Notes under the pieces: generated by a model | Database searches by the model: none | What the model was told of the DNA's origin: nothing | The model's input: only the letters and a program-made list of their open reading frames with translations | Program-made: the position numbers and the translations under genes | Assembly: GCA_000511875.1 (NCBI GenBank) | Contig: AZIN01000004.1 | Span: 310,001-374,000, forward strand | DNA: 64,000 bases | Reading direction: 5' to 3' | Origin: Gammaproteobacteria bacterium MOLA455 | Lineage (GTDB): Bacteria; Pseudomonadota; Gammaproteobacteria; Pseudomonadales; Porticoccaceae | In this document: positions 25,962 to 40,914 of the stretch, piece by piece | How positions within the stretch are numbered: position 1 is the first letter of the stretch | Layout: the number at the start of each line of letters is the position of its first letter

Positions 25962-28328
25962 CTAGAAGCTTTTTCGTGCAGTGATACCAAACGTGCGGGG
26001 CTGGTTTGGATAAATATTAAAGCTTCCTTCTTGAGCTGGCGTTGGGAAACCACTGGTCATATATTCATCATTAGTCACATTGCGCGCCCAGATAGACAGG
26101 TTTAAGCCGCTTTGTGTGTTCATACCCGCACTTAAGTTAAGAGAGCCGACTTCACGCGTAGCTATAGCTGCAACAGCTGGCGGGAGATTATCGACGATTG
26201 TTACTTCGTCTGCATACTGGTAATCAGCACGAGCGTAAGCATCATTGTTGCCTAAACGGAAATTATAGAGAGCCGAGAGGGACAGGCTTACTTCATGAAT
26301 CCCCGCAGGCTTAGTGCCTGATAGATCTGCGCCTTGAAAGCCTCCACCAACGAATTCATCATAGAGTGGATCCAACAATGTGCCTGCCAAGCCTAACCTG
26401 AGTGATTCTACTGGGTAGTAGACTAGGTCGAATTCAACTCCCTTGGTAGATTGCCGTCCTGCATTGCGGAGCTCAAAACCGGTGCCGTTAAAAATAGACG
26501 ACTGGAAGCCTTTAATTGTTTGATCAAATAGCGCCATATTGAACGAACCGCGCTCAAACACTGCCTTTAAACCCAACTCATAGACTTCTGATTCTTCAGG
26601 GCTTGCAAAGCGTGAACCCGCTGAAAGATTGGGAGCGTTGGTAGTCAACCCTGCGGCTACTAGTGCTGCTAAGTCAGCGGCATTAGGACCTGAGTCCCGT
26701 GACAGATTCCAAGAACTGGCCTTGAAACCGGTGGCGTAGCTTCCATAGATATTGATGCTATCGGTTAAGTCATAAGCTAGGCGAAGAGTATAGGTGGTGT
26801 CACTGTCATCACTGGTATTGCCTTCAATTGCGTTTGGAAGGTTGACCACTGGTGGCAGCGAAGATTGAAGGGCAGATAATGCTCCTACGAAAGCTGCTGG
26901 CAGAGAGGCAAAGACGTTGTTGTTAACTTGACTGACCGTCACTTCTTTTTTAGCCTCGGTGTAGTTAAAGCCGGCGGTTAAAGTTAGTTGCTCGTTTAAC
27001 TGCAGATCAAACTGACCAAATAACGAAGTTGATTTATCGTCTTGAGTAAAGCTATCTTGAGCACCAGTACCATTGGCAAAGAACGTCCCTGCAGGGAATC
27101 CAAATCCAGCTTCAACGGCACCAAGAGCACCAGGAGCGCCCAAGCCGGCAACTAAAAGATCAAAATAGTTTCGTGCCTGTGGTCCCCATAACACCTCAGA
27201 GTCATATTTCACTTCCTCATCGAAGTAAAAGGCGCCGACCATCCAGCTTAAATCACCATCACCGGTTGAGGTAAGACGGATTTCCTGACTGAATGTGTCG
27301 ACATTTAAGTCGTTGGGACTAGTTTGGGTTAATGGAGCGCTGGTAAAGTCGATATCGAGGGCCTCATAGGTGTCACTGAAGCGCTGAGAGGTAATCGATG
27401 TTAAGACAAAACTGCCATAGTCGACATCGATTTGAGCCGAAATACCACCGTTTTCAACCTCATTAAAGGGGTCAATGTCTGTCGCTATGCGATAGGCGAA
27501 GGGTTGATCGGGCACCAGTTCACCACCAAGAAGTCCGATTGCTCCGCCAGTAGGGCCGTTAATCAAGTTTGATACACCACAGCAGACTTCATCGATCTCG
27601 TCGTAATCGGCAATTATACGCACTTCAGTGTTGTCAGTTGGCGTCCATGACACCTGACCGCGCACACCCCAGCGCTCTCTTTCATTCATGGCAGCGCCGC
27701 CAGCTATGTTGGTAAAGTAGCCGTCGCGTTGAGTCATGTTGCCAGATATGTCGAAGCTCAGATCTTCAGAAATTGCGCTTTCAAATAACGCCTTGGTATT
27801 CTTATACCCAATGTTGCCGATACTAGCTTCAATATAGCCACCAGTCTCCCCAGAAGGCTTAGGTGTAACTATACTGATAACGCCGGCTGAGGCGTTCTTG
27901 CCAAACAGAATGCTCTGTGGGCCGCTAAGTACTTCGACGCGTTCTAAACGTGGTAGGTCAGAAATTGCTGAGCCAGCGCGTGAACGGTATACACCGTCGA
28001 TAAACACACCAACAGAAGGCTCTATACCTTCGTTATTTGAGCCGTTACCAAACCCACGAATTGCAAACGAGGTGTTAGTTGATGACTGCAATTGAGATAC
28101 CCGCAGGGTAGGCACAACACTTTGCAGATCAATAATGTCTTGGATTGCGGCTTTTGAAATAGTATCGCCAGTAGTCACTGTGACCGACACTGGGATATCT
28201 TGCAGGGTTTGCTCGCGTTTGTTGGCGGTTACAATTACTTCTTCAATTGCTGCTTGCGCCATGCCGCCGGCAAAAATACTCGCCACTGCAAGAGCCAAAC
28301 AGGATTTCTGTGCACGTATAAGATTCAT
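25962..28328 (-). CDS. TonB-dependent receptor, substrate unknown
   Basis: Outer-membrane receptor of 788 aa. The signal peptide is residues 1-26 (ends GMAQA). The N-terminal IEEVIVTANKREQTLQDIPVSVT is the style shared by many TBDRs of marine and sphingomonad-type bacteria. The plug includes RGFGNGSNNEGIEPSVGVF and RVEVLSGPQSILFGKNASAG; the barrel ends in ITARKSF with a terminal Phe. It stands between tdh-kbl and sdaA, so an amino-acid- or peptide-related substrate is possible but unproven. No riboswitch or Fur-like box is seen upstream. A small palindrome (28355-28370) lies 27 bp before the ATG. Confidence 0.92.
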   Translation of the reverse strand: MNLIRAQKSCLALAVASIFAGGMAQAAIEEVIVTANKREQTLQDIPVSVTVTTGDTISKAAIQDIIDLQSVVPTLRVSQLQSSTNTSFAIRGFGNGSNNEGIEPSVGVFIDGVYRSRAGSAISDLPRLERVEVLSGPQSILFGKNASAGVISIVTPKPSGETGGYIEASIGNIGYKNTKALFESAISEDLSFDISGNMTQRDGYFTNIAGGAAMNERERWGVRGQVSWTPTDNTEVRIIADYDEIDEVCCGVSNLINGPTGGAIGLLGGELVPDQPFAYRIATDIDPFNEVENGGISAQIDVDYGSFVLTSITSQRFSDTYEALDIDFTSAPLTQTSPNDLNVDTFSQEIRLTSTGDGDLSWMVGAFYFDEEVKYDSEVLWGPQARNYFDLLVAGLGAPGALGAVEAGFGFPAGTFFANGTGAQDSFTQDDKSTSLFGQFDLQLNEQLTLTAGFNYTEAKKEVTVSQVNNNVFASLPAAFVGALSALQSSLPPVVNLPNAIEGNTSDDSDTTYTLRLAYDLTDSINIYGSYATGFKASSWNLSRDSGPNAADLAALVAAGLTTNAPNLSAGSRFASPEESEVYELGLKAVFERGSFNMALFDQTIKGFQSSIFNGTGFELRNAGRQSTKGVEFDLVYYPVESLRLGLAGTLLDPLYDEFVGGGFQGADLSGTKPAGIHEVSLSLSALYNFRLGNNDAYARADYQYADEVTIVDNLPPAVAAIATREVGSLNLSAGMNTQSGLNLSIWARNVTNDEYMTSGFPTPAQEGSFNIYPNQPRTFGITARKSF

Positions 28329-31621: not shown

Positions 31622-32533
31622 ATGAGCTCAATCTTAATTACCGGTGGCAGTGGTTTTATTGGTAGGCACTTTTGCAATCAGGCCGAACAGCTGGGTCATC
31701 AGCTCTCTGTCCTGACACGAAATCGAGAGGCGACGGCAGCGCGGCTGCCGGCATCGGTGCGTCTGATACAGGGACTTGAGGAACTGGACGCAGACTATGT
31801 TCCCGAAGTAATTGTCAATCTGGCTGGAGAACCCCTGGCCGCGGGGCGCTGGACTCAGCGTCGCAAGCAGCGCTTCTATGACAGCCGGATTAATCTCACA
31901 GATCGTCTCTATGAGTTTTTTGCCGAGCGCAATCGCACGCACAATCGCAAACCCAGCCTAGTGATCAGCGGTTCGGCTATTGGCTATTATGGGCCTAGCC
32001 ACAAACCGGTGCATGAACATTCCAGCGCCGTGGATGGCTTCTCACACCAGCTGTGTAAAACCTGGGAGCAGAGCGCCAAACGTTTTGAAACTCTGGGCAG
32101 TCGTGTGTGCTATCTGCGCACTGGCATTGTGCTGGGGGAAGAGGGTGCTCTGGCGCGGATGCTTCCGCCCTTTAAGGTGGCTCTTGGAGGCCCAATCGGC
32201 AGTGGCGAGCAGGGTATGTCGTGGATTCATATCGACGATATGGTCGGTGCGATTATGCACTGCATGAATAACCCGCAGGTTTCTGGTCCGGTTAATGCCA
32301 CCGCCCCAAAACCGGTCTCCAACGCGCAATTTAGTGCCAGCTTAGGTGCAGTACTCAATCGACCTGCTGTGCTGCCAATGCCAGGATTTATGGTCAAGCT
32401 GCTGTTTGGTGAAATGGGCGAGGAGTTGTTATTGCAGGGGCAATACGTACTGCCGAACAAGTTGCTGGCCAGCGGCTACCTATTCCAATATAGCGATCTC
32501 GAAAAAGCCCTACAGCAGATTATTGCTGTCTAG
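31622..32533 (+). CDS. yfcH: TIGR01777-type epimerase-like protein (YfcH family)
   Basis: Extended SDR-fold protein of 303 aa. The NAD(P) loop is ITGGSGFIGRHF (residues 5-16). Family blocks: VNLAGEPLAAGRW near residue 66, SGSAIGYYG near 117, RTGIVLG and WIHIDDMVGAI. The C-terminal DUF1731 segment ends in YSDLEKALQQI. Biochemical function of YfcH-type proteins is not settled. Its last 4 bases overlap the end of the convergent FGGY kinase gene. Confidence 0.88.
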   Translation: MSSILITGGSGFIGRHFCNQAEQLGHQLSVLTRNREATAARLPASVRLIQGLEELDADYVPEVIVNLAGEPLAAGRWTQRRKQRFYDSRINLTDRLYEFFAERNRTHNRKPSLVISGSAIGYYGPSHKPVHEHSSAVDGFSHQLCKTWEQSAKRFETLGSRVCYLRTGIVLGEEGALARMLPPFKVALGGPIGSGEQGMSWIHIDDMVGAIMHCMNNPQVSGPVNATAPKPVSNAQFSASLGAVLNRPAVLPMPGFMVKLLFGEMGEELLLQGQYVLPNKLLASGYLFQYSDLEKALQQIIAV

Positions 32534-34104
32534 TTGGGATAACCGGTAATTTTGCGGATCGCTTCATAGCTGGGTTTCAGGCTCTGATACATTTTGCAAT
32601 AGACCTGAGTGTAGAGTTGATTGTAGATTTCATGATTGGCCGCTATAGGCTCAAAACGATCACCAGGATAAGTCATTTTGGCCGCGGCGCTGGCAAAGTC
32701 GGTATAGAGTCCACAGCCTACTGCGGCCGCCATGGCGGCACCCAGGGCCGAGGTCTCAAAGGTATGAGGTCGCTGCACCGGCATGCCGAATATATCCGCG
32801 GTAATCTGCATTATCTGATCACTCTGAGAACCGCCACCGGAGACCAATAGTTTGGTGATGGTCTCCCCGCTGCGCTTCTCCACGCGCTCTTTACCGGCGC
32901 GCAGAGCATAGGTGAGTCCCTCGATAATTGCTCTGTAGAGATGTGCTCTAGTGTGTACGTCGCCAAAGCCAATAATGGCACCCTTGGCTTCTGGGCCTTC
33001 GTTGTCTGCACCTGCGCCCCAGTAGGGTTGCAAGGTCAGGCCCGCAGAGCCGGCGGGAACCTGCTGCAACAAATTATCAAACAGTGACTCCACCGTGACG
33101 CCCTGTTGCTCAGCGGCGGACTGTTCTTCGAGGCCAAACTGCTGTTTAAACCAGCTCACCATCCAATAGCCTCGTGGCACCATCATCTCAATATTAAAGC
33201 TCCCGGGAATCACGCCTGGATAGGCGGGGTGAAAGGGAATGACTTCAAGGTACTTGTCGCTGGTGATATTAAAAGTGGCCGTGGTGCCATAGCTGAGACT
33301 GCCGGTATTGCTATCCAGACAGCCGCTGCCGAGCACTTCGCAGGCTTTGTCTGAGCCGCAGGCAATAAGCGCTAGTCCCTGGGGAATACCCGTCTCAGCT
33401 GCGGCTGCGCTGCTGATGTGACCCAGTACGCCGCCAGCCTCAACCAGCTCCGGCAGCATCTCTCGCTTAATGGAGGGAATTGCACGCCATTTCCAATCTT
33501 TGGCCTCAGCCCACTTTAGCTGTTTAAAATCAAAGGGAACGAAACCCACCTGGCTGGCAACAGAATCTCTGTAATCACCGGTGAGTTTGTAGTTGTGATA
33601 GCCAGAGAGCAGCAACAGTTTGTCTACTTGCCGCCAAAGCTCTGGTTCATGCTCAGCAATCCAGTTGACCTCGGCCTGGGTGTGAAAAGTATCCACCGCT
33701 GCTTTGGCACCCACGGCACGCATCAATAGTGACTCCACTGCCCCCAACTCTGGCTTGCTGTGGATCTGCCGTTGATCGAGCCAACTAATGGCGGCGCGCA
33801 ATGGCTGGCCGTCGGCACCCATGGCCACTACAGTGGCGCGCTGGGTGGTAACGGCAATGGCTTTGATTGATTCTCGGGGAATCTCGAGCTGATCCCAGAG
33901 TTGATGGCACGCCTGGCAGAGGGCTTGCCAGAAATAGTCGGCATGCTGTTCGGCCCATCCTGGCTCGGTGGAAAAATAGGGCTCGATCTCGATTTTACTT
34001 TTTGCTATCAGCTGGCCATTTCGATCAAAGACCATAGCGCGGACACTCTGGGTGCCGTTATCTATAGAGAGTAAATACTCTTGTTTGTCAGTTGCTATTT
34101 CCAT
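32530..34104 (-). CDS. FGGY-family carbohydrate kinase, atypical glycerol-kinase relative
   Basis: ATP-dependent kinase of 524 aa with both FGGY halves: LSIDNGTQSVRAMVFD at residues 12-27 and the C-terminal LVSGGGSQSDQIMQITAD with GAAMAAAVG. In glycerol kinase an Arg-Glu pair binds glycerol; here the aligned text TTQRATV has Arg89-Ala90, so the Glu is lost. WLDQR replaces the following block, as in xylulokinase-like members. The general-base Asp is kept (ACGSDKACEVLG). Substrate is therefore not plain glycerol. It is the third gene of the AGPS-GlpD-kinase operon, 26 bp after the GlpD gene. I infer a substituted glycerol such as an alkylglycerol. Confidence 0.82.
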   Translation of the reverse strand: MEIATDKQEYLLSIDNGTQSVRAMVFDRNGQLIAKSKIEIEPYFSTEPGWAEQHADYFWQALCQACHQLWDQLEIPRESIKAIAVTTQRATVVAMGADGQPLRAAISWLDQRQIHSKPELGAVESLLMRAVGAKAAVDTFHTQAEVNWIAEHEPELWRQVDKLLLLSGYHNYKLTGDYRDSVASQVGFVPFDFKQLKWAEAKDWKWRAIPSIKREMLPELVEAGGVLGHISSAAAAETGIPQGLALIACGSDKACEVLGSGCLDSNTGSLSYGTTATFNITSDKYLEVIPFHPAYPGVIPGSFNIEMMVPRGYWMVSWFKQQFGLEEQSAAEQQGVTVESLFDNLLQQVPAGSAGLTLQPYWGAGADNEGPEAKGAIIGFGDVHTRAHLYRAIIEGLTYALRAGKERVEKRSGETITKLLVSGGGSQSDQIMQITADIFGMPVQRPHTFETSALGAAMAAAVGCGLYTDFASAAAKMTYPGDRFEPIAANHEIYNQLYTQVYCKMYQSLKPSYEAIRKITGYPN

Positions 34105-34130
34105 GGCAATCGGGCTCTATTATTTTTACT

Positions 34131-35771
34131 TTATGTGCCATCGTTGTCTTGCGGAAGGCTGTAAAAACGCTTCCAGATACTCAGGTAGCGTTTAACTTCA
34201 ACTTGCCAATGGTCTTGGTTCCAGCCCAGTTCAGCGCTACAAATAGCTTCCAGGGCGGGGAGTAATTCCGCGGCCCCATGAACCATGACCATGCCTAACC
34301 TAGTGCGTCGCAACAGTAGATCATCGAGATGAGTAACCGCCTCATGGCGTGCTGCCCAGCGACATTCAGCGAGGCAGAAGTCGGTGCCGGCAATGCGCTG
34401 GCGCTCTGCTTTTGGTGCACTGTCGAGCATTACTTTGGCTTGGGTTCCGTAACGACCCAGCAGGCGCTGCGCCCAGATTGGGTCATCGGCAACTAGATCT
34501 TCAGGTGTGAGGTCGGGGGTGATAAATACCCGGTCGTCGCTGAAAGATTTGGCTTTGGGTAGCTGAGGCAGAGCAGCGTTCAGGGCATCCAGCGCAATCA
34601 GCCTGAAGGTGGTGAGCTTGCCGCCACTAACTGTGATCAAGCCATTATCTGACCAGACTGCGTGATCCCTACGCTCCTTTGAAGGATCTTTGGAGCTTTC
34701 CGAGCCAATAACTGGGCGCACCCCAGCCCAACTGGAAATAATGTCGGCGCGGCTAATTGTTTGCTTGGGAAACTGCACATTAAAGGCCCGAAGCAGATAG
34801 TCCACTTCGGCCTTATTGATACTGGCTTCAATATCTAGATCTTCACTGTGGTCGAGATCAGTGGTGCCAATAACCGTGGTGCCTTCCCAGGGGTAGACAT
34901 AGACTCCGCGCTTATCGTCAGGGTGCAGTGATGTGAGTACATCAGTGACTGGCATCAGCTCACGGGCAATAATCAGGTGGCTGCCGCGCAGTGGGCGGAT
35001 GCGTTTCTCTGCATTGACTTGGTTGCGCAGACGATCGGCCCAGGCACCGGTTGCATTAATGACCGCAGCAGCGCGCAGGCGAATATCCTCGCTGCTCTCA
35101 GAATCATTCAGCATGACGCCTTGAACCTGACCCTCTTGCAACAGCAGCTGGTTGACTTTGCTGTAGTTGATGGCGGTACCACCAGTTTCTATGCTCTCCT
35201 GCAAGACCCGCAGCACCAATCTTGAATCATCCACCATGGCGTCGCTGTAGGAGGCCGCACCATTGAGGTGGCCCTGCGCGAGGTCGGGGAATCGCTCTCC
35301 GAGGCGGCGATTATTGTGGTAGCGGTGGTCGTAGATACCGGCAATAAAATCATAGATGGTCAAAATAACAGCCATCGCCCAGCGGCCGGGGAACAGACCT
35401 TTGCTGAGGGCGAAATAAAAGTTAATCCGATGGACTAGTCCCGGCGCTTCTGCAAGCAGACGTTCGCGCTCTATAAGGCTCTCTTTGGTCAGCTTCAGGT
35501 CACCGGCGGCCAGATAGCGCAAACCGCCGTGAACCATTTTCGATGAGCGGCTCGAGGTGCCGGAGGAGAAATCGCCCTGTTCAAGCAGTAGGGCACGGTA
35601 GCCCCGGCGCACCGCTTCACGCAAAATACCGGCACCGGTTATGCCGCCACCAATAATAATGATGTCCCAATCCAGAGACTCGCCACTGCGCATTTCGGCG
35701 AGCAGTTTGTCTCTGGAGGTGAAGCAGCGATCAGATAAAGGACGTACTTCAATCATTTTAGTTGAGCTCAT
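34131..35771 (-). CDS. GlpD-family FAD-dependent glycerol-3-phosphate dehydrogenase
   Basis: Membrane-associated flavoprotein of 546 aa. The FAD-binding DIIIIGGGITGAGILREA lies near residue 33, with GTSSRSSKMVHGGLRYL and YSDAMVDDSRLV as GlpD substrate and flavin blocks; VSGGKLTTFR closes the FAD site. The C-terminal DAO_C domain follows. Family reaction: sn-glycerol-3-phosphate to dihydroxyacetone phosphate with electrons to quinone. Its ATG lies 14 bp before the end of the AGPS-like gene, so the two are coupled. Within this operon the substrate may be a 1-alkyl glycerol phosphate; a plain GlpD role is the conservative alternative. Confidence 0.88.
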   Translation of the reverse strand: MSSTKMIEVRPLSDRCFTSRDKLLAEMRSGESLDWDIIIIGGGITGAGILREAVRRGYRALLLEQGDFSSGTSSRSSKMVHGGLRYLAAGDLKLTKESLIERERLLAEAPGLVHRINFYFALSKGLFPGRWAMAVILTIYDFIAGIYDHRYHNNRRLGERFPDLAQGHLNGAASYSDAMVDDSRLVLRVLQESIETGGTAINYSKVNQLLLQEGQVQGVMLNDSESSEDIRLRAAAVINATGAWADRLRNQVNAEKRIRPLRGSHLIIARELMPVTDVLTSLHPDDKRGVYVYPWEGTTVIGTTDLDHSEDLDIEASINKAEVDYLLRAFNVQFPKQTISRADIISSWAGVRPVIGSESSKDPSKERRDHAVWSDNGLITVSGGKLTTFRLIALDALNAALPQLPKAKSFSDDRVFITPDLTPEDLVADDPIWAQRLLGRYGTQAKVMLDSAPKAERQRIAGTDFCLAECRWAARHEAVTHLDDLLLRRTRLGMVMVHGAAELLPALEAICSAELGWNQDHWQVEVKRYLSIWKRFYSLPQDNDGT

Positions 35772-37374
35772 CAGGTAGTAGTTTGCCCGGGTTCATCTGG
35801 CTCCGTGGATCAAATAGTCGGCACAGTGAATTGATCGCCGCCAAACCCAGGTTGCCTTTCTCGGCTGCCAGATAGTCCCGGTGATCTCGTCCCACACCGT
35901 GCTGGTGACTAATAGTGCCGCCACTGACAACGATTTGATTGGCACCTGCAGCCTTGAGTTTGTGCCAGCGGTCCATTGCTTGCCCGTAGCTGTCCCCGAG
36001 TCGGAATAGATAGGTAGTGTAGATACTCGAACCCTGACCATAGACATGGCTGAGGTGGGTGTAGGTATAAACCTGTTCCCCTTCATCGGTCAATCCATTG
36101 CGGATCGCCGATTCGATATTCTCCACAGTCTGTGGCACCTTTGACCAATCGACCGCAGTCTCCATAGTGTCAACCGCATAGCCGGCACGGCCCAGAGGAT
36201 CCCTCAGGTAGGGCGCACGAAAGCGGCCATGGGCCCATCTATCACCCAAGCCAGCTTGATCGGCCAAACCCCCGAGATTAGTGCAGTGATCCAGTGCCAT
36301 TTCTTTGGCTGTCGTACAGTGGCGAGCGGAGCCGGTGACACCGAAGGTCATCATTACTTTGCCGGCTCCAATGCCTTTTTCTGCCAGCGCAGCTTCCAGA
36401 GCGACCACGCCGCTGCTGTCATCACCGGCACCCATATAGAGCAAGCTGGTGGTTTCCAATGGATTGCTTAGGCGCACCATAGACAGAGCAATGCGCTGTT
36501 GGATTAATTCTCTAGCGGCCTGCAGACCCACTTCCCAGGAGGGGAAAAATACGACCTGAAAAGATTCCTCTTCGGGCAGTTTGGTCACTCTCACCACCAC
36601 CTCGGTAATAATGCCTATGCGTCCTTCAGAGCCAAGAATCATTTCACGAATATCGGGACCCGCAGAGGAGGCGGGAATAGTGGGTATCTCAAGAGTGCCT
36701 GCGAGGGTCTCAATAGAGCCGCCAGCAAACATATTTTCAATGCGGCCGTAGTGCAGAGACTGCTGTCCGCTGGAGCGACTGGCAACCCAGCCACCCACTG
36801 TGGAAAGCTCCCAAGATTGGGGGAAATGGCCTAGGGTATAACCTTCTTTTTGTAGTTGGGCTTCCAATTCGGGGCCCGCTGTGCCGGCTCCAAAGGTGGC
36901 TAATTGACTCTCGTGATCAAACTTAATGAGCTTGTTCATGGCGCTCATGTTGATGGTCAGTATCGGGCGCGCACTGTTCTCTGGATTGATATGACCCACT
37001 ACTGAGGTACCGCCGCCATAGGGAATCACATCGATGTCGTTGTCTTTGGCATAGCAGAGTAATTCACGTACCTCTGCGCTAGTCTCGGGCACTGCCACAG
37101 CGTCGGGAAAATTGTCTACATCACCGCTGTGCATGTCTAGCCAGTCTGGTAGGCTTTGGCCCCGGGCATGACGCACTCGGGTCTCTGAGTCTGTACTGAT
37201 AAGCGGGTGGGCTGGGGCTTTGGAGGCCGGCACTTTAGCCATAACCTGTTCCAGTGTTGCTTCACCTAAGGGGGTGGCTGGTCCCACTAGGGCCTGCAGC
37301 AGATTGCGCAAACCACCATTGAGCTCCATCAGCAAGTCGCTATTTTCATTTCCCCAGCCATTCCATAGACGCAT
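35758..37374 (-). CDS. alkyldihydroxyacetonephosphate synthase-like FAD oxidoreductase
   Basis: VAO/PCMH-type flavoprotein of 538 aa. The N-terminus opens MRLWNGWGNE, like the KWNGWGYND start of the human AGPS core. FAD-binding blocks PYGGGTSVVGHI, STVGGWVASRSSGQQS and GPDIREMILGSEGRIGIITE match AGPS closely. Near the C-terminus ISHQHGVGR (His490-Gln491-His492) occupies the place of the AGPS His triplet, with the middle His changed. AGPS exchanges the acyl group of acyl-DHAP for a fatty alcohol. There is no peroxisomal-type leader or signal peptide. It is the first gene of the three-gene operon, divergent from an AraC gene. A glycolate- or lactate-oxidase role is less likely given the AGPS-specific blocks. 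Confidence 0.85.
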   Translation of the reverse strand: MRLWNGWGNENSDLLMELNGGLRNLLQALVGPATPLGEATLEQVMAKVPASKAPAHPLISTDSETRVRHARGQSLPDWLDMHSGDVDNFPDAVAVPETSAEVRELLCYAKDNDIDVIPYGGGTSVVGHINPENSARPILTINMSAMNKLIKFDHESQLATFGAGTAGPELEAQLQKEGYTLGHFPQSWELSTVGGWVASRSSGQQSLHYGRIENMFAGGSIETLAGTLEIPTIPASSAGPDIREMILGSEGRIGIITEVVVRVTKLPEEESFQVVFFPSWEVGLQAARELIQQRIALSMVRLSNPLETTSLLYMGAGDDSSGVVALEAALAEKGIGAGKVMMTFGVTGSARHCTTAKEMALDHCTNLGGLADQAGLGDRWAHGRFRAPYLRDPLGRAGYAVDTMETAVDWSKVPQTVENIESAIRNGLTDEGEQVYTYTHLSHVYGQGSSIYTTYLFRLGDSYGQAMDRWHKLKAAGANQIVVSGGTISHQHGVGRDHRDYLAAEKGNLGLAAINSLCRLFDPRSQMNPGKLLPDELN

Positions 37375-37512
37375 AGCGAATACCTTTATTGTTAGAGTTT
37401 ATTGTTGAGACGATACATAGTTACGTATGATAGTCTGCAGGAAAAACTGGTCACTGTCAGGTGACGACAGCGGTGTGACGATTTCGGTCAGCTGTTTACT
37501 CAGGGGGCAAAG

Positions 37513-38553
37513 ATGATTCAAGTGGTCAGCAATGGACTGGCGTCGGCACCTGCGATTAAGCAGTATTTAAACGCTGCCGAAGCCTGTGGTCTAGATGTTC
37601 AACCTCTGCTGGCCGAGGCCGGAATAGATCCGAAGATACTGGAAGACAATAACCGCCATCTGCCCAATTCCTGTATGGAGCGGTTGTTGGCGCTGTTGAT
37701 TCCGGCGAGTAAAGATCCCTGTTTTGGTTTGCATGCGGCGCGTCTTGTTGAACCTGCGTCTTTTAGTGTGCTCGGTTATATCTCCATGAACTGTTCCACA
37801 TTGCGGATGGTTCAGGCAAAAATCCCGATCTATGAAAAAATCGTTGGCGACATGGGTGTAACCTCTTTTGAGACCGCTCATGGTGTGGTTCTACAGCGCT
37901 GGCAATGTCTGTTTACCGATCCCGAGGTAAAGCGCCACGAGGTAGAAAATGTTTTAGGGTCCTGGGTCTGTTATGCGCGTCAGTTTCTTAACTTTGACCA
38001 CTGGGACAGTATCTGGTTTGAGCACTCGGCGCCGGAGGACCCAGCACTGCTGGCAGATTATCAGGAGGTGTTTAACTGTGAGGTGCTGTTTGATCAGCCT
38101 TTCAGTGGTGTGCGTGTTCGCGAGAGCCTGCTTGATGAAGTGTTACCCCAAGCCAACGCCGAGCTGCTGGAAATGCTGCTGGCCCATGCCACTAAATTAT
38201 TGGCCGGGCTCGATCAAAGTCAGCGCACTACTGACCAAGTAAAAAATATTTTGCGCCTGATGATTAATCAGCAACCGCCTTCCAGTGAAATGATCGCCGA
38301 AAAGCTCGGTATCAGCAGTCGTACCCTGCAGCGAAAGCTGAGCGAAGAGGGCACCCACTACAAAGATGTGCTCAATGAACTGCGCTATGAACTGGCGACT
38401 TACTTTTTGAAAAATACCGAGCTGACACTGGACAATATTGCTCATGAGCTGGGTTATGCTGAGGCCCGCTCTTTTTATCGCAGCTTTAAGCAGTGGACCG
38501 GCGAGACCGCTGGGTCCTATCGCACAGCACACGCCGTTAATTTAAAAGATTGA
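37513..38553 (+). CDS. AraC-family transcription regulator (OruR/ArgR-like architecture)
   Basis: The 346-aa regulator has an N-terminal Arabinose_bd-type ligand domain (about residues 25-210) and a C-terminal pair of HTH motifs: SSEMIAEKLGISSRTLQRKL near 258 and LTLDNIAHELGYAEARSFYRSFKQWTG near 305. It is divergent from the AGPS-GlpD-kinase operon over 138 bp, so it is the likely activator. This branch often senses a hydrophobic or amino-acid-type ligand. GGGGGC lies just before the ATG. Its end abuts the convergent epimerase gene without overlap. Confidence 0.88.
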   Translation: MIQVVSNGLASAPAIKQYLNAAEACGLDVQPLLAEAGIDPKILEDNNRHLPNSCMERLLALLIPASKDPCFGLHAARLVEPASFSVLGYISMNCSTLRMVQAKIPIYEKIVGDMGVTSFETAHGVVLQRWQCLFTDPEVKRHEVENVLGSWVCYARQFLNFDHWDSIWFEHSAPEDPALLADYQEVFNCEVLFDQPFSGVRVRESLLDEVLPQANAELLEMLLAHATKLLAGLDQSQRTTDQVKNILRLMINQQPPSSEMIAEKLGISSRTLQRKLSEEGTHYKDVLNELRYELATYFLKNTELTLDNIAHELGYAEARSFYRSFKQWTGETAGSYRTAHAVNLKD

Positions 38554-39534
38554 TTACTTCTTTAACAGGCCCTCGTCAGTTGCCCATTGCTTTGAGCGCG
38601 CCATCCCCTCTTCAAACGACACTTCAGGTGCCCAGCCGAGAATTCGCTGGGCTTTCTCTATGCTGAACCAGCTTTTGGTCGATAACTGAGCCACTGTGGC
38701 AGTGGAGGCTTCATTCACACCGCCGGTTAGATAGGCAAGTTTGGTGGCTAAGCTGGCGGCTGTCAGTGCCAGTCGAGTAGATACCAACATTGGACCTTTC
38801 TTGTTGAGCCAGCTGTAGTGGTGAGTGAAAAACTCTTTACTGCTGATATAACCCTGGCATGAGAGATTAAATATTTCGCCATTGGCCTCGGGGCTGGCAG
38901 CTGCCAGTACAATTCCACGGATCAGATCATCGACATAGGTGGGGCGAAAAAATCCTTCGCCTTTTTCCGGGAGCATAAACTGACCTTTGTGAATGGCTTC
39001 TAAAGGCAAGATTAACCAGGGTCGGCTGCCGGGACCATAGACATCACCTGGTCGTATAATCACGATCTCTATATTGCCCTTGGCATGCGCCGCTAACACT
39101 GCGTGCTCAGACGCAAGTTTGGTTAAGACATAGCTGCCTCCATCTGCATGTACCGGGTGATCTTCATGGAGCTCACCGGCAGCTGAATTACCGTAGGCAA
39201 CAATGGATGAAAGCTGCACAAAACGGCGAACCTTATATTTCTCAGCCGCGGCAATCAGGTTGGCCGTGGCCTGCACATTGACCCGCCACATAGCCGCGTC
39301 ACTGAGAGCGTTGGAGACCAGTGCAGCAGTGTGAATAATGACATCGCATTGATCGAGCAGTTCGGCAATAGTTTCGGGATTGCCAATATCACCTTCCACA
39401 ATAGCCCCGCCATCACCGCGCAAGTCGACGCCCACAACTTCAATGCCCTGCTGTTGATAGTGGCGCATCAAGCTGTTGCCAATAAAACCATTGGCGCCAG
39501 TGATCATTACTTTGCTCGGTGTTTGCTCGTTCAT
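38554..39534 (-). CDS. NAD-dependent epimerase/dehydratase family protein
   Basis: Extended SDR of 326 aa. The NAD loop ITGANGFIGNSL is at about residues 11-22, the catalytic SS-IVAYG and YVLTK (YxxxK) follow, and RPGDVYGPGSRPW is the substrate-side block. The text resembles 3-beta-hydroxysteroid dehydrogenase-like and NAD-epimerase members more than sugar epimerases of cell-wall synthesis. It lies 54 bp downstream of an SDR gene on the same strand and may be cotranscribed with it. A link to the ether-lipid-like operon on the other side of the AraC gene is possible. Substrate unknown. Confidence 0.82.
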   Translation of the reverse strand: MNEQTPSKVMITGANGFIGNSLMRHYQQQGIEVVGVDLRGDGGAIVEGDIGNPETIAELLDQCDVIIHTAALVSNALSDAAMWRVNVQATANLIAAAEKYKVRRFVQLSSIVAYGNSAAGELHEDHPVHADGGSYVLTKLASEHAVLAAHAKGNIEIVIIRPGDVYGPGSRPWLILPLEAIHKGQFMLPEKGEGFFRPTYVDDLIRGIVLAAASPEANGEIFNLSCQGYISSKEFFTHHYSWLNKKGPMLVSTRLALTAASLATKLAYLTGGVNEASTATVAQLSTKSWFSIEKAQRILGWAPEVSFEEGMARSKQWATDEGLLKK

Positions 39535-39588: not shown

Positions 39589-40386
39589 CTACTGCATATT
39601 GCTGCGGTAATAGCGCCCGGCAATTTTTGCCAGCGCCATTCGCGAGAACAGGCGAGTAATGGCTACGGTAATGCGATTGGCCAGTCCGGTGACAATGGTC
39701 GGTCGACCAGCGAGGCAGGCTTCAATACCCTGTTCGGCAACTTCTCGCGGCGACTGCAGCATGCCATCTGGAACCAGTAGCTTACCCCCCTGGTCTGGGT
39801 TATCCATCATTTTGGTGGCTGTGTAGCCTGGGCAGAGAGCGGAGACTGTGACCCCTGACTTGCTCGCATTGAGCTCGTCGTGCAGCGCCTGAGTAAACGA
39901 CAGCACATAGGCCTTAGTGGCAGCATAGACATTCTGATTGGGGATCGGCGTCCAGGCGGCGAGTGAGGCAACATTTAAAATATGCCCGCCACTGCGACTG
40001 GCCATATTGTTTGCAAACAGATGGGTCAAGGAGGTCAGAGCGAGAACATTGACGTTAATCATGTTTTCCTGAGCGGCCAAATCAAGCTCGGTAAAAAAGC
40101 CATTTTGCAGCAGCCCGGCATTGTTAATGAGAAAATCCACTTCCAGCCCCTGTTCCTGAACTTGCTGGAACAGCGTTTGAGCCGCCTGTGGTGCAGCAAG
40201 ATCTGCGGTGATCACAGTGCAGCTAATTGTTGGATATTGCGTTTTAAGACTCTCGGCTATCTCGTCCAACAGCGATTGGCGGCGGGATACTAGGATTAAG
40301 TTAGAGCCCTTGGCGGCGAGAATTTTACAGCATTCGAGGCCGATGCCATCTGAGGCGCCGGTTACTAAGGTAGTTTTATTGTGCAT
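39589..40386 (-). CDS. short-chain dehydrogenase/reductase
   Basis: Classical SDR of 265 aa. The nucleotide loop is VTGASDGIGLECC (residues 7-19), NNAG is near residue 90, and the catalytic tetrad has Ser in NVASLAAW, then YAATK (Tyr and Lys). Arginines after the third strand (SRRQ) favour NADP(H). The C-terminal PREVAEQGIEACLAGRPTIV is typical of the DltE/YdfG-like group that reduces acyl or keto groups. It probably starts the transcript that continues to the 38554-39534 epimerase. Substrate unknown. Confidence 0.85.
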   Translation of the reverse strand: MHNKTTLVTGASDGIGLECCKILAAKGSNLILVSRRQSLLDEIAESLKTQYPTISCTVITADLAAPQAAQTLFQQVQEQGLEVDFLINNAGLLQNGFFTELDLAAQENMINVNVLALTSLTHLFANNMASRSGGHILNVASLAAWTPIPNQNVYAATKAYVLSFTQALHDELNASKSGVTVSALCPGYTATKMMDNPDQGGKLLVPDGMLQSPREVAEQGIEACLAGRPTIVTGLANRITVAITRLFSRMALAKIAGRYYRSNMQ

Positions 40387-40518
40387 AGTCTGGTCCGCAG
40401 AGTTAAGTGGGGCGAGATTTTGGTTACAGAGGATTCTCAGTGAGGCCTTATATTAGCGGAAAAACTATGCCGTTCACTGTCATCAACAGTCACTGCGGTG
40501 GTAATTTCGGACACAAAA

Positions 40519-40557: not shown

Positions 40558-40914
40558 CTACTTTTTCTCAAACAAAGCTGAGAAGCTGTGGCTGAAGCGA
40601 CCATTCCACGTTTTGCCAGCGCCCCTATATCTCAAGTGAAAACCGGGTGCCAATGGCACATAGGCAGTGCCTTATGCAGTCATTTCATCAGTTATATTGC
40701 GGCCATAGAGCATAAAGGCTCAGTTTTCACCGTGCAGTCCTGTGCCGAGATTCATTTTCTCGAATCCTTCCTGGTAATCAATAGAATCGGGATCGTCGGC
40801 CAAGTAGTAAATGTTGGTGAAGTTGACGTCGAGACCCGTGGCGGTAAAACCAATGTCAGCCGTTTTACAGTAGTTAGAGACTGGTTTATGACCGCTGTCT
40901 AATTCAGCTTTGAA
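40558..40914 (-). pseudogene. remnant of a TonB-dependent receptor C-terminus
   Basis: Reading the - strand in one frame gives about 115 codons with the end of a TBDR barrel: TATGLDVNFTNIYYL, then DYQEGFEKMNLGTGLHGEN, a TGA, AFMLYGRNITDE, a TAA, then APGFHLRYRGAGKTWNGRF and a final stop. LYGRNITDE is the typical penultimate-strand text of these receptors (compare LWGRNLADKE in the receptor at 14648-16777). The in-frame stops lie at 40722-40720 and 40674-40672. The N-terminal 600 or so residues are missing; the stretch upstream is the udg leader. This is a decayed, 5'-deleted gene. A + strand frame over the same bases is a shadow. Confidence 0.75.

Follow-up and report, generated by a model that had tools for sequence, protein, structure and literature searches.

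The 64,000-nucleotide stretch of DNA analysed here (hereafter the window: contig AZIN01000004.1 of assembly GCA_000511875.1, positions 310,001 to 374,000 of the forward strand, from Gammaproteobacteria bacterium MOLA455) carries a linked triad of genes encoding a relative of the ether-lipid enzyme AGPS, a GlpD-like dehydrogenase and an FGGY kinase, which we regard with moderate confidence as a GliR-controlled catabolic pathway for 1-O-alkylglycerols. The identity of the genes, their linkage, the sites they share and the residue changes were observed, and from these we infer the substrate, the reactions and the fates of the products. The core features are listed below; L and G numbers denote loci and genomes of the comparison sets, G000 being the window genome.

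32530..34104, minus strand: FGGY kinase, candidate 1-O-alkylglycerol 3-kinase (524 aa; Pfam FGGY_N and FGGY_C)
34131..35771, minus strand: GlpD-like FAD dehydrogenase, candidate alkyl-glycerol-3-phosphate C2 oxidase (546 aa; Pfam DAO and DAO_C)
35758..37374, minus strand: AGPS-like FAD enzyme, candidate cleaving enzyme for alkyl-dihydroxyacetone phosphate (alkyl-DHAP) (538 aa; PDB 2uuu match)
37451..37487, minus strand: candidate GliR operator CCGAAAT-N22-GACAGTGA, including TGTC-N7-GACAGTGA, in the AGPS/AraC intergenic region
37513..38553, plus strand: AraC-family regulator, candidate GliR orthologue (346 aa; NCBIfam GliR NF050186)

The coordinates agree with a preliminary description of this DNA, which had noted three tightly linked minus-strand genes with a 14-bp overlap (35758-35771, AGPS-like and GlpD-like) and a 26-bp gap (34105-34130, GlpD-like and kinase), and a divergent AraC gene at their head. 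Its family assignments also hold. The best PDB matches of the AGPS-like protein are the AGPS entries 2uuu and 4bby (233 and 204 bits, versus 77 bits for the best non-AGPS entry), which we take to be the Dictyostelium and guinea pig enzymes; it scores 400 bits with a profile, has the N-terminal WNGWG motif in common with the two eukaryotic AGPS whose structures are known, and is 29% and 31% identical to them over the aligned parts. The GlpD-like protein matches PDB 3da1 best (237 bits) and scores 297 bits with NF008899, under the cut-off of 360. The kinase falls below every NCBIfam cut-off, reaching 192 bits with the GlpK model (cut-off 590). The AraC protein scores 366 bits with the GliR model (E 2e-109), under the 570-bit cut-off, and stands divergent from the AGPS-GlpD-kinase genes, as in the GliR operon layout.

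Conserved co-occurrence of the three families, proposed earlier as a check, was evident in several samples. An AGPS scan of genome contigs gave at least 582 relatives, the nearest 80 of which were kept as named loci and include Porticoccaceae, SAR92, SAR86, Pseudomonas, Marinobacter, Endozoicomonas and others. In 73 of these best 80 of at least 582 the genes follow the order AGPS-GlpD-kinase, and 5 others end at a contig edge; at L041 and L043 the kinase and GlpD-like genes are not beside AGPS despite ample room, and those genomes encode a kinase of more than 900 bits at another site, adjoining a GlpD-like gene. Among 398 genomes evenly drawn as a phylum sample, 21 had an AGPS match at E 1e-60, falling into a group of 16 genomes that score 777-873 bits and another of six weaker matches (218-335 bits); the triad is present in all 16 strong-match genomes, the window genome included. 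A class sample of 369 genomes yielded 11 with an AGPS match. Besides that of the window, this sample has eight strong genomes (among them G007, a strong-match genome of the phylum sample too), six holding the triad, with the kinase 1.3 kb away in G037; at L022 (G038) AGPS-GlpD is followed by other genes and the operon-type kinase lies elsewhere in the genome (853 bits), and at L020 (G347) an operon-type AGPS stands at a contig end. The sample sets overlap, in that L049 and L144 carry identical proteins and at least one genome is therefore in both. Because the order recurs in 73 of 80 loci and in 16 of 16 strong phylum-sample genomes, the linkage is beyond chance. One locus labelled Actinomycetota (L050) holds a triad with an AGPS about 58% identical to that of the window, possibly on a mis-binned contig.

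The kinase lacks the glycerol-binding Glu, as had been claimed: QRET of GlpK is QRAT in the window protein. Of the 94 operon kinases compared with E. coli GlpK, 93 were used (one short row, L039, was dropped), and all 93 keep Arg83, Trp103 and Asp245 of GlpK, the last presumably catalytic. None has Glu84, which we take to bind glycerol; Gly (66), Ala (20), Tyr (5) or Ser (2) stands in its place, Tyr135 is mostly Phe or Leu, and Phe270 is lost. As far as residues can tell, this is the pattern to be expected, though not proof, if the phosphorylated end of glycerol were still held while the far hydroxyl carried something bulky. A true GlpK is encoded in G000 outside the window (690 bits), and in a census of the GlpK and GlpD families covering 50 of the 73 triad genomes GlpK exceeded its cut-off in 47; two SAR86 genomes narrowly missed it (579 and 586 bits), and a metagenome-assembled genome (that of L092) was the sole case among the 50 with none shown. 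Because 47 of 50 triad genomes carry a separate GlpK over the cut-off, the operon kinase is something other than GlpK.

The operon is already known, as the GliR operon. A literature search by PA numbers for PA3026-PA3024 and PA3027 turned up one paper, PMC8151288, whose text describes P. aeruginosa GliR (PA3027) as an activator of PA3026-PA3024. The P. aeruginosa operon resembles that of the window in its three gene kinds, their order and the divergent AraC activator; it differs in having a YegS lipid kinase after the FGGY kinase, where the window has a TIGR01777 protein gene on the opposite strand, and the window adds a seemingly co-regulated pair of dehydrogenase-like genes considered below. 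When GliR is overproduced in P. aeruginosa, PA3023 (lipid kinase), PA3464 (phospholipase C) and PA3342 are raised as well (PMC8151288), and the phospholipase C and lipid kinase among them point towards a lipid substrate. The statement in the preliminary description that no such pathway had been described thus stands in part: the operon and its regulator are published (PMC8151288), and in the literature on bacterial alkylglycerol breakdown no breakdown role for the AGPS-GlpD-kinase triad was proposed among the matches listed, mostly openings of abstracts.

The published guess at function is synthesis, PA3026-PA3024 being drawn as a route from glycerol to alkylglycerone phosphate in PMC8151288, the main text of which contains no word starting with "ether". 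Under this proposal the kinase would form glycerol 3-phosphate (G3P), GlpD would yield DHAP, an unlinked acyltransferase would give acyl-DHAP, and AGPS would add the fatty alcohol. Kinship with AGPS and the conserved catalytic Tyr, Arg and His residues agree with it. Equivalents of Y578, R515, R419, H300, T309, H615 and H617 are kept in all 103 operon-type AGPS; however, Gln replaces D303 in all 103 and H616 in 101 of them. The window protein likewise departs from the mammalian set (Y578, R515, R419, H300, D303, H615-H617) at D303 and H616 only, both Gln, the roles of these residues, with Y578 catalytic, being those we take them to have. Unlike eukaryotic AGPS, to whose family it belongs, it has a kinase and GlpD as partners and no acyltransferase. 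Both D303 and H616 are kept in the two eukaryotic AGPS and at three gammaproteobacterial loci where AGPS lies beside an acyltransferase:

L025:2591-6975: AGPS beside an acyltransferase, with HMG-CoA reductase also there
L027:452-4780: AGPS adjoining a GPAT-like acyltransferase
L028:2106-6570: AGPS adjoining a reductase-acyltransferase fusion

From their residues and neighbours these three are candidate ether-lipid makers, combining AGPS with the DHAP acyltransferase or fatty-acyl reductase expected of a synthesis operon, a combination with no convincing counterpart at the operon-type loci. Their acyltransferases were used as tblastn queries (E 1e-4; distant acyltransferases could be missed) against 104 stretches, 103 around an operon-type AGPS and one (L147) around an AGPS of the sister type described below. 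The complete triad is present in 94 of these stretches, and several have little length. The sole match was one of 22% with the fusion, in L019. In a 39-row tree including 24 of the 103 operon-type AGPS, the latter form one clade (97/99), apart from which L027 and L028 cluster with the mammalian enzyme (100/100); L025 and Dictyostelium AGPS are unplaced. Both kinds occur in genome G112 (L019, operon-type; L027, acyltransferase-linked). Together with the GlpK already present in 47 of 50 genomes, the loss of Glu84 from the operon kinase, and the oxidative direction in which GlpD runs, these findings make synthesis improbable. Asp303 and His616 of AGPS may offer a residue marker that helps to tell ether-lipid makers from breakers in genomes, although no simple rule holds, Gln at 303 being found outside the operon type too. 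A sister AGPS clade that lacks the triad (L147:8972-10549, L157-L160, L026) spans several families and has no operon-type kinase or GlpD adjoining; at L147 a DAO-type FAD enzyme adjoins AGPS on the opposite strand.

Two further genes and a second candidate operator probably extend the unit in the lineage of the window; the earlier gene set, borne out for the triad and AraC, did not include them.

38554..39534, minus strand: extended short-chain dehydrogenase/reductase (SDR), here EPI, NAD-dependent epimerase/3beta-HSD-like, probable regulon member (Pfam Epimerase/3Beta_HSD/NAD_binding_4)
39589..40386, minus strand: classical SDR, probable regulon member (Pfam adh_short)
40474..40510, minus strand: second copy of the candidate operator, before the SDR gene (one-mismatch site G000:C4:350474-350492; same CCGAAAT-N22 spacing)

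Scanning of 47 AGPS/AraC intergenic regions (AraC gene within 700 bp of AGPS) detected TGTC-N7-GACAGTGA within one mismatch in 35, and in none of 2350 mononucleotide shuffles. The exact site occurs once in G000, at the AGPS promoter; with up to one mismatch there are five sites versus 17 for the control, so that the short site alone is weak; one of these five, however, stands 88 bp upstream of the SDR gene. The longer CCGAAAT-N22-GACAGTGA occurs in the window before AGPS as well as before SDR. Ahead of SDR it is found in 3 of the 9 SDR-bearing loci inspected, namely the window, L029 and L030 (in L030 with one change), and is absent from L031, L032, L037 and the SAR86 loci L033, L034 and L035. 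In these SAR86 loci and L018, SDR and EPI lie directly upstream of AGPS in the same direction, forming a codirectional run SDR-EPI-AGPS-GlpD-kinase in L033 and L035, which extends upstream with a DUF3604 gene in L033. SDR and EPI are counted as a probable part of the unit because of the shared candidate operator and this codirectional placement. Their apparent co-regulation also lends something to the synthesis proposal, in which the SDR could be the alkyl-DHAP reductase, as does the NAD-epimerase-like gene that the myxobacterial ether-lipid operon MXAN_1676-1674 has beside its AGPS homologue (PMC9131029). There, however, AGPS accompanies a FAR1+GNPAT fusion (MXAN_1675), a layout found in L028 and not in the window; the myxobacterial AGPS mutant lost little ether lipid (PMC9131029). 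To look for a wider GliR regulon, 19 genomes were scanned for exact copies of the operator, with the reversed pattern as control. Of 23 matches (versus 16 in the control), 12 are AGPS promoters; the 11 others fall below the control and show no second half-site by eye at the right place, and the two with surroundings inspected precede unrelated genes. No further regulon member is therefore claimed.

A diverged second triad (kinase, GlpD and AGPS) occurs at three loci:

L161:3462-9760: weak AGPS match; major facilitator superfamily (MFS) transporter, FGGY kinase, GlpD-like and AGPS-like genes
L165:611-6881: as L161
L166:7847-12179: GlpD, AGPS, and a kinase with Thr at the place of Glu84

Its AGPS type was found in 3 of the 398 phylum-sample genomes (E 1e-60), lacks R515 and D303, and groups apart from the window clade (94/74, with a long-branch warning). 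The L161 kinase scores 320 bits with the GlpK model, under the cut-off, and has Cys at the Glu84 place. Because a transporter adjoins the kinase, dehydrogenase and AGPS-like genes, L161 and L165 read as a system of uptake and breakdown. A 1290-aa frame in L161 had suggested that GlpD and AGPS are fused there; this was rejected, the GlpD match lying in another frame. The same three-step logic could apply to some other 1-O-substituted glycerol (an isoprenoid or branched glycerol ether, an aryl ether or a glycosylglycerol), any C1 alcohol being freed. The kinase changes suggest an opened sn-1 position, not its occupant, and the MFS transporter beside the second triad resembles the sugar type, with a gene downstream in L161 and L165 that presumably resembles GlpP. 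AGPS tunnels, by contrast, hold long alkyl chains, and the GliR-raised phospholipase C and lipid kinase of P. aeruginosa point to lipids (PMC8151288); we consider such a substrate unlikely, though less so than a role in synthesis.

Of 100 GlpD-like proteins, L034 and L047 (both cut) and L161 (diverged) were dropped; the 97 operon-type proteins that remain all have the six residues R54, Y55, H233, R317, R332 and K354, which we take to be the substrate-site set of GlpD. Among the 50 triad genomes, 31 encode an additional GlpD that scores above the NF008899 cut-off, and 42 have at least two GlpD-family matches. Because the window gene is the only intact GlpD found in G000, its product might also serve ordinary G3P, which speaks against strict specialisation in that genome. 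Both this and the fully kept residues could fit auxiliary catabolism of glycerol or G3P, with the AGPS-like protein a plain flavin oxidase. This we rate as very improbable, given that GlpK coexists, that operon deletion in P. aeruginosa had no effect on growth with glycerol (PMC8151288), and that the AGPS-like proteins are split from same-genome GlcD-like proteins (100/100, long branch) and keep AGPS residues that these oxidases lack. Clustering with oxidases, which the preliminary description had regarded as fatal to its proposal, was thus not seen. A second GlpD-family gene of G000 (L119:5465-5974, contig C1) is a short fragment adjoining a GDPD gene; relatives G369, G370 and G372 have a GlpD frame of about 400 aa.

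Breakdown is the best supported reading and a fairly probable one. Its direction, as suggested in the preliminary description, is favoured over synthesis by the gene context, the separate GlpK, the active-site changes and the second triad beside a transporter; the substrate, its cleavage and what becomes of the fatty alcohol are more conjectural. The source would be the batyl- or chimyl-type alcohols that lipases or phospholipase C leave behind on stripping ether lipids. The FGGY kinase would phosphorylate the free sn-3 hydroxyl of the alkylglycerol, loss of Glu84 making room at the alkyl-bearing hydroxyl, and the GlpD-like enzyme would oxidise C2 to give alkyl-DHAP, passing electrons to quinone. 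The reduced flavin of the AGPS-like enzyme would then attack C1 of alkyl-DHAP and expel the fatty alcohol, leaving DHAP (with water as second nucleophile) or acyl-DHAP (with a fatty acid); the Asp303Gln/His616Gln pair may tune the enzyme for release. Finally, at a guess, the probably co-regulated SDR and epimerase-like dehydrogenase would oxidise the alcohol or aldehyde.

A number of points weigh against this proposal. The proposal takes AGPS to be reversible. The XylB and autoinducer-2 kinase models of NCBIfam outscore GlpK for the window kinase; other FGGY kinases also have no Glu84-type residue, and its loss alone fits other FGGY substrates. Gln at 303 is found as well in the sister AGPS clade that has no triad (L026, L147, L157, L159, L160). 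The AGPS of the second triad lacks R515, the transporter beside that triad looks like one for sugars and has no match in L166, and the triad may take a hydrophilic substrate. An operon-type kinase was not found in G347 (best 80 bits; a 92% complete draft). If the SDR were an alkyl-DHAP reductase, synthesis would gain support. Among 20 annotated neighbour proteins, representing part of the neighbours, there was no aldehyde dehydrogenase and one protein of acyl-CoA-ligase type. In P. aeruginosa, the text of PMC8151288 reports no growth effect of operon deletion in rich medium, citrate, glycerol or nine Biolog plates, and in E. coli no more than a slight response to GliR from the promoters of PA3464 and PA3342.

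Alkylglycerol cleavage by AGMO uses O2, and to our knowledge no gene has been assigned to alkylglycerol kinase activity. AGMO and alkylglycerol kinase (EC 2.7.1.93) act on the substrate class proposed for the window operon, AGMO being a tetrahydrobiopterin-dependent monooxygenase and, according to a 2021 review, the only known alkylglycerol-degrading enzyme (PMC7911779); the route proposed here would need neither tetrahydrobiopterin nor O2 for cleavage. We put it at slightly better than even that Gammaproteobacteria, including oceanic SAR86 and SAR92-type organisms, degrade ether lipids in this manner, cleaving the alkyl ether without an O2-dependent monooxygenase by running AGPS chemistry backwards. 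If so, alkylglycerol kinase activity would gain a gene and the cleavage of alkylglycerols in biology a second class of enzyme, and many marine and soil bacteria would run part of the animal ether-lipid building route in reverse. Corals contain a significant quantity of monoalkyldiacylglycerols (PMC10608786), and the conserved triad of Endozoicomonas, SAR86 and Porticoccaceae could degrade ether lipids such as these. Breakdown also offers the published, phenotype-less Pseudomonas GliR operon a concrete, testable role.

Other annotated neighbours, including MoeA, CheW, GGDEF-EAL, type II secretion and pirin genes, look like lineage background, and PADLOC gave no matches. Upstream of the SDR gene, 40582-40839 (minus strand) is a remnant of the final ~84 residues (62% identical) of an 883-aa protein, which is encoded in full immediately ahead of SDR in both L029 (4152-6803) and L030, and which resembles the TonB-dependent receptor encoded at 25962-28328 of the window (27%).

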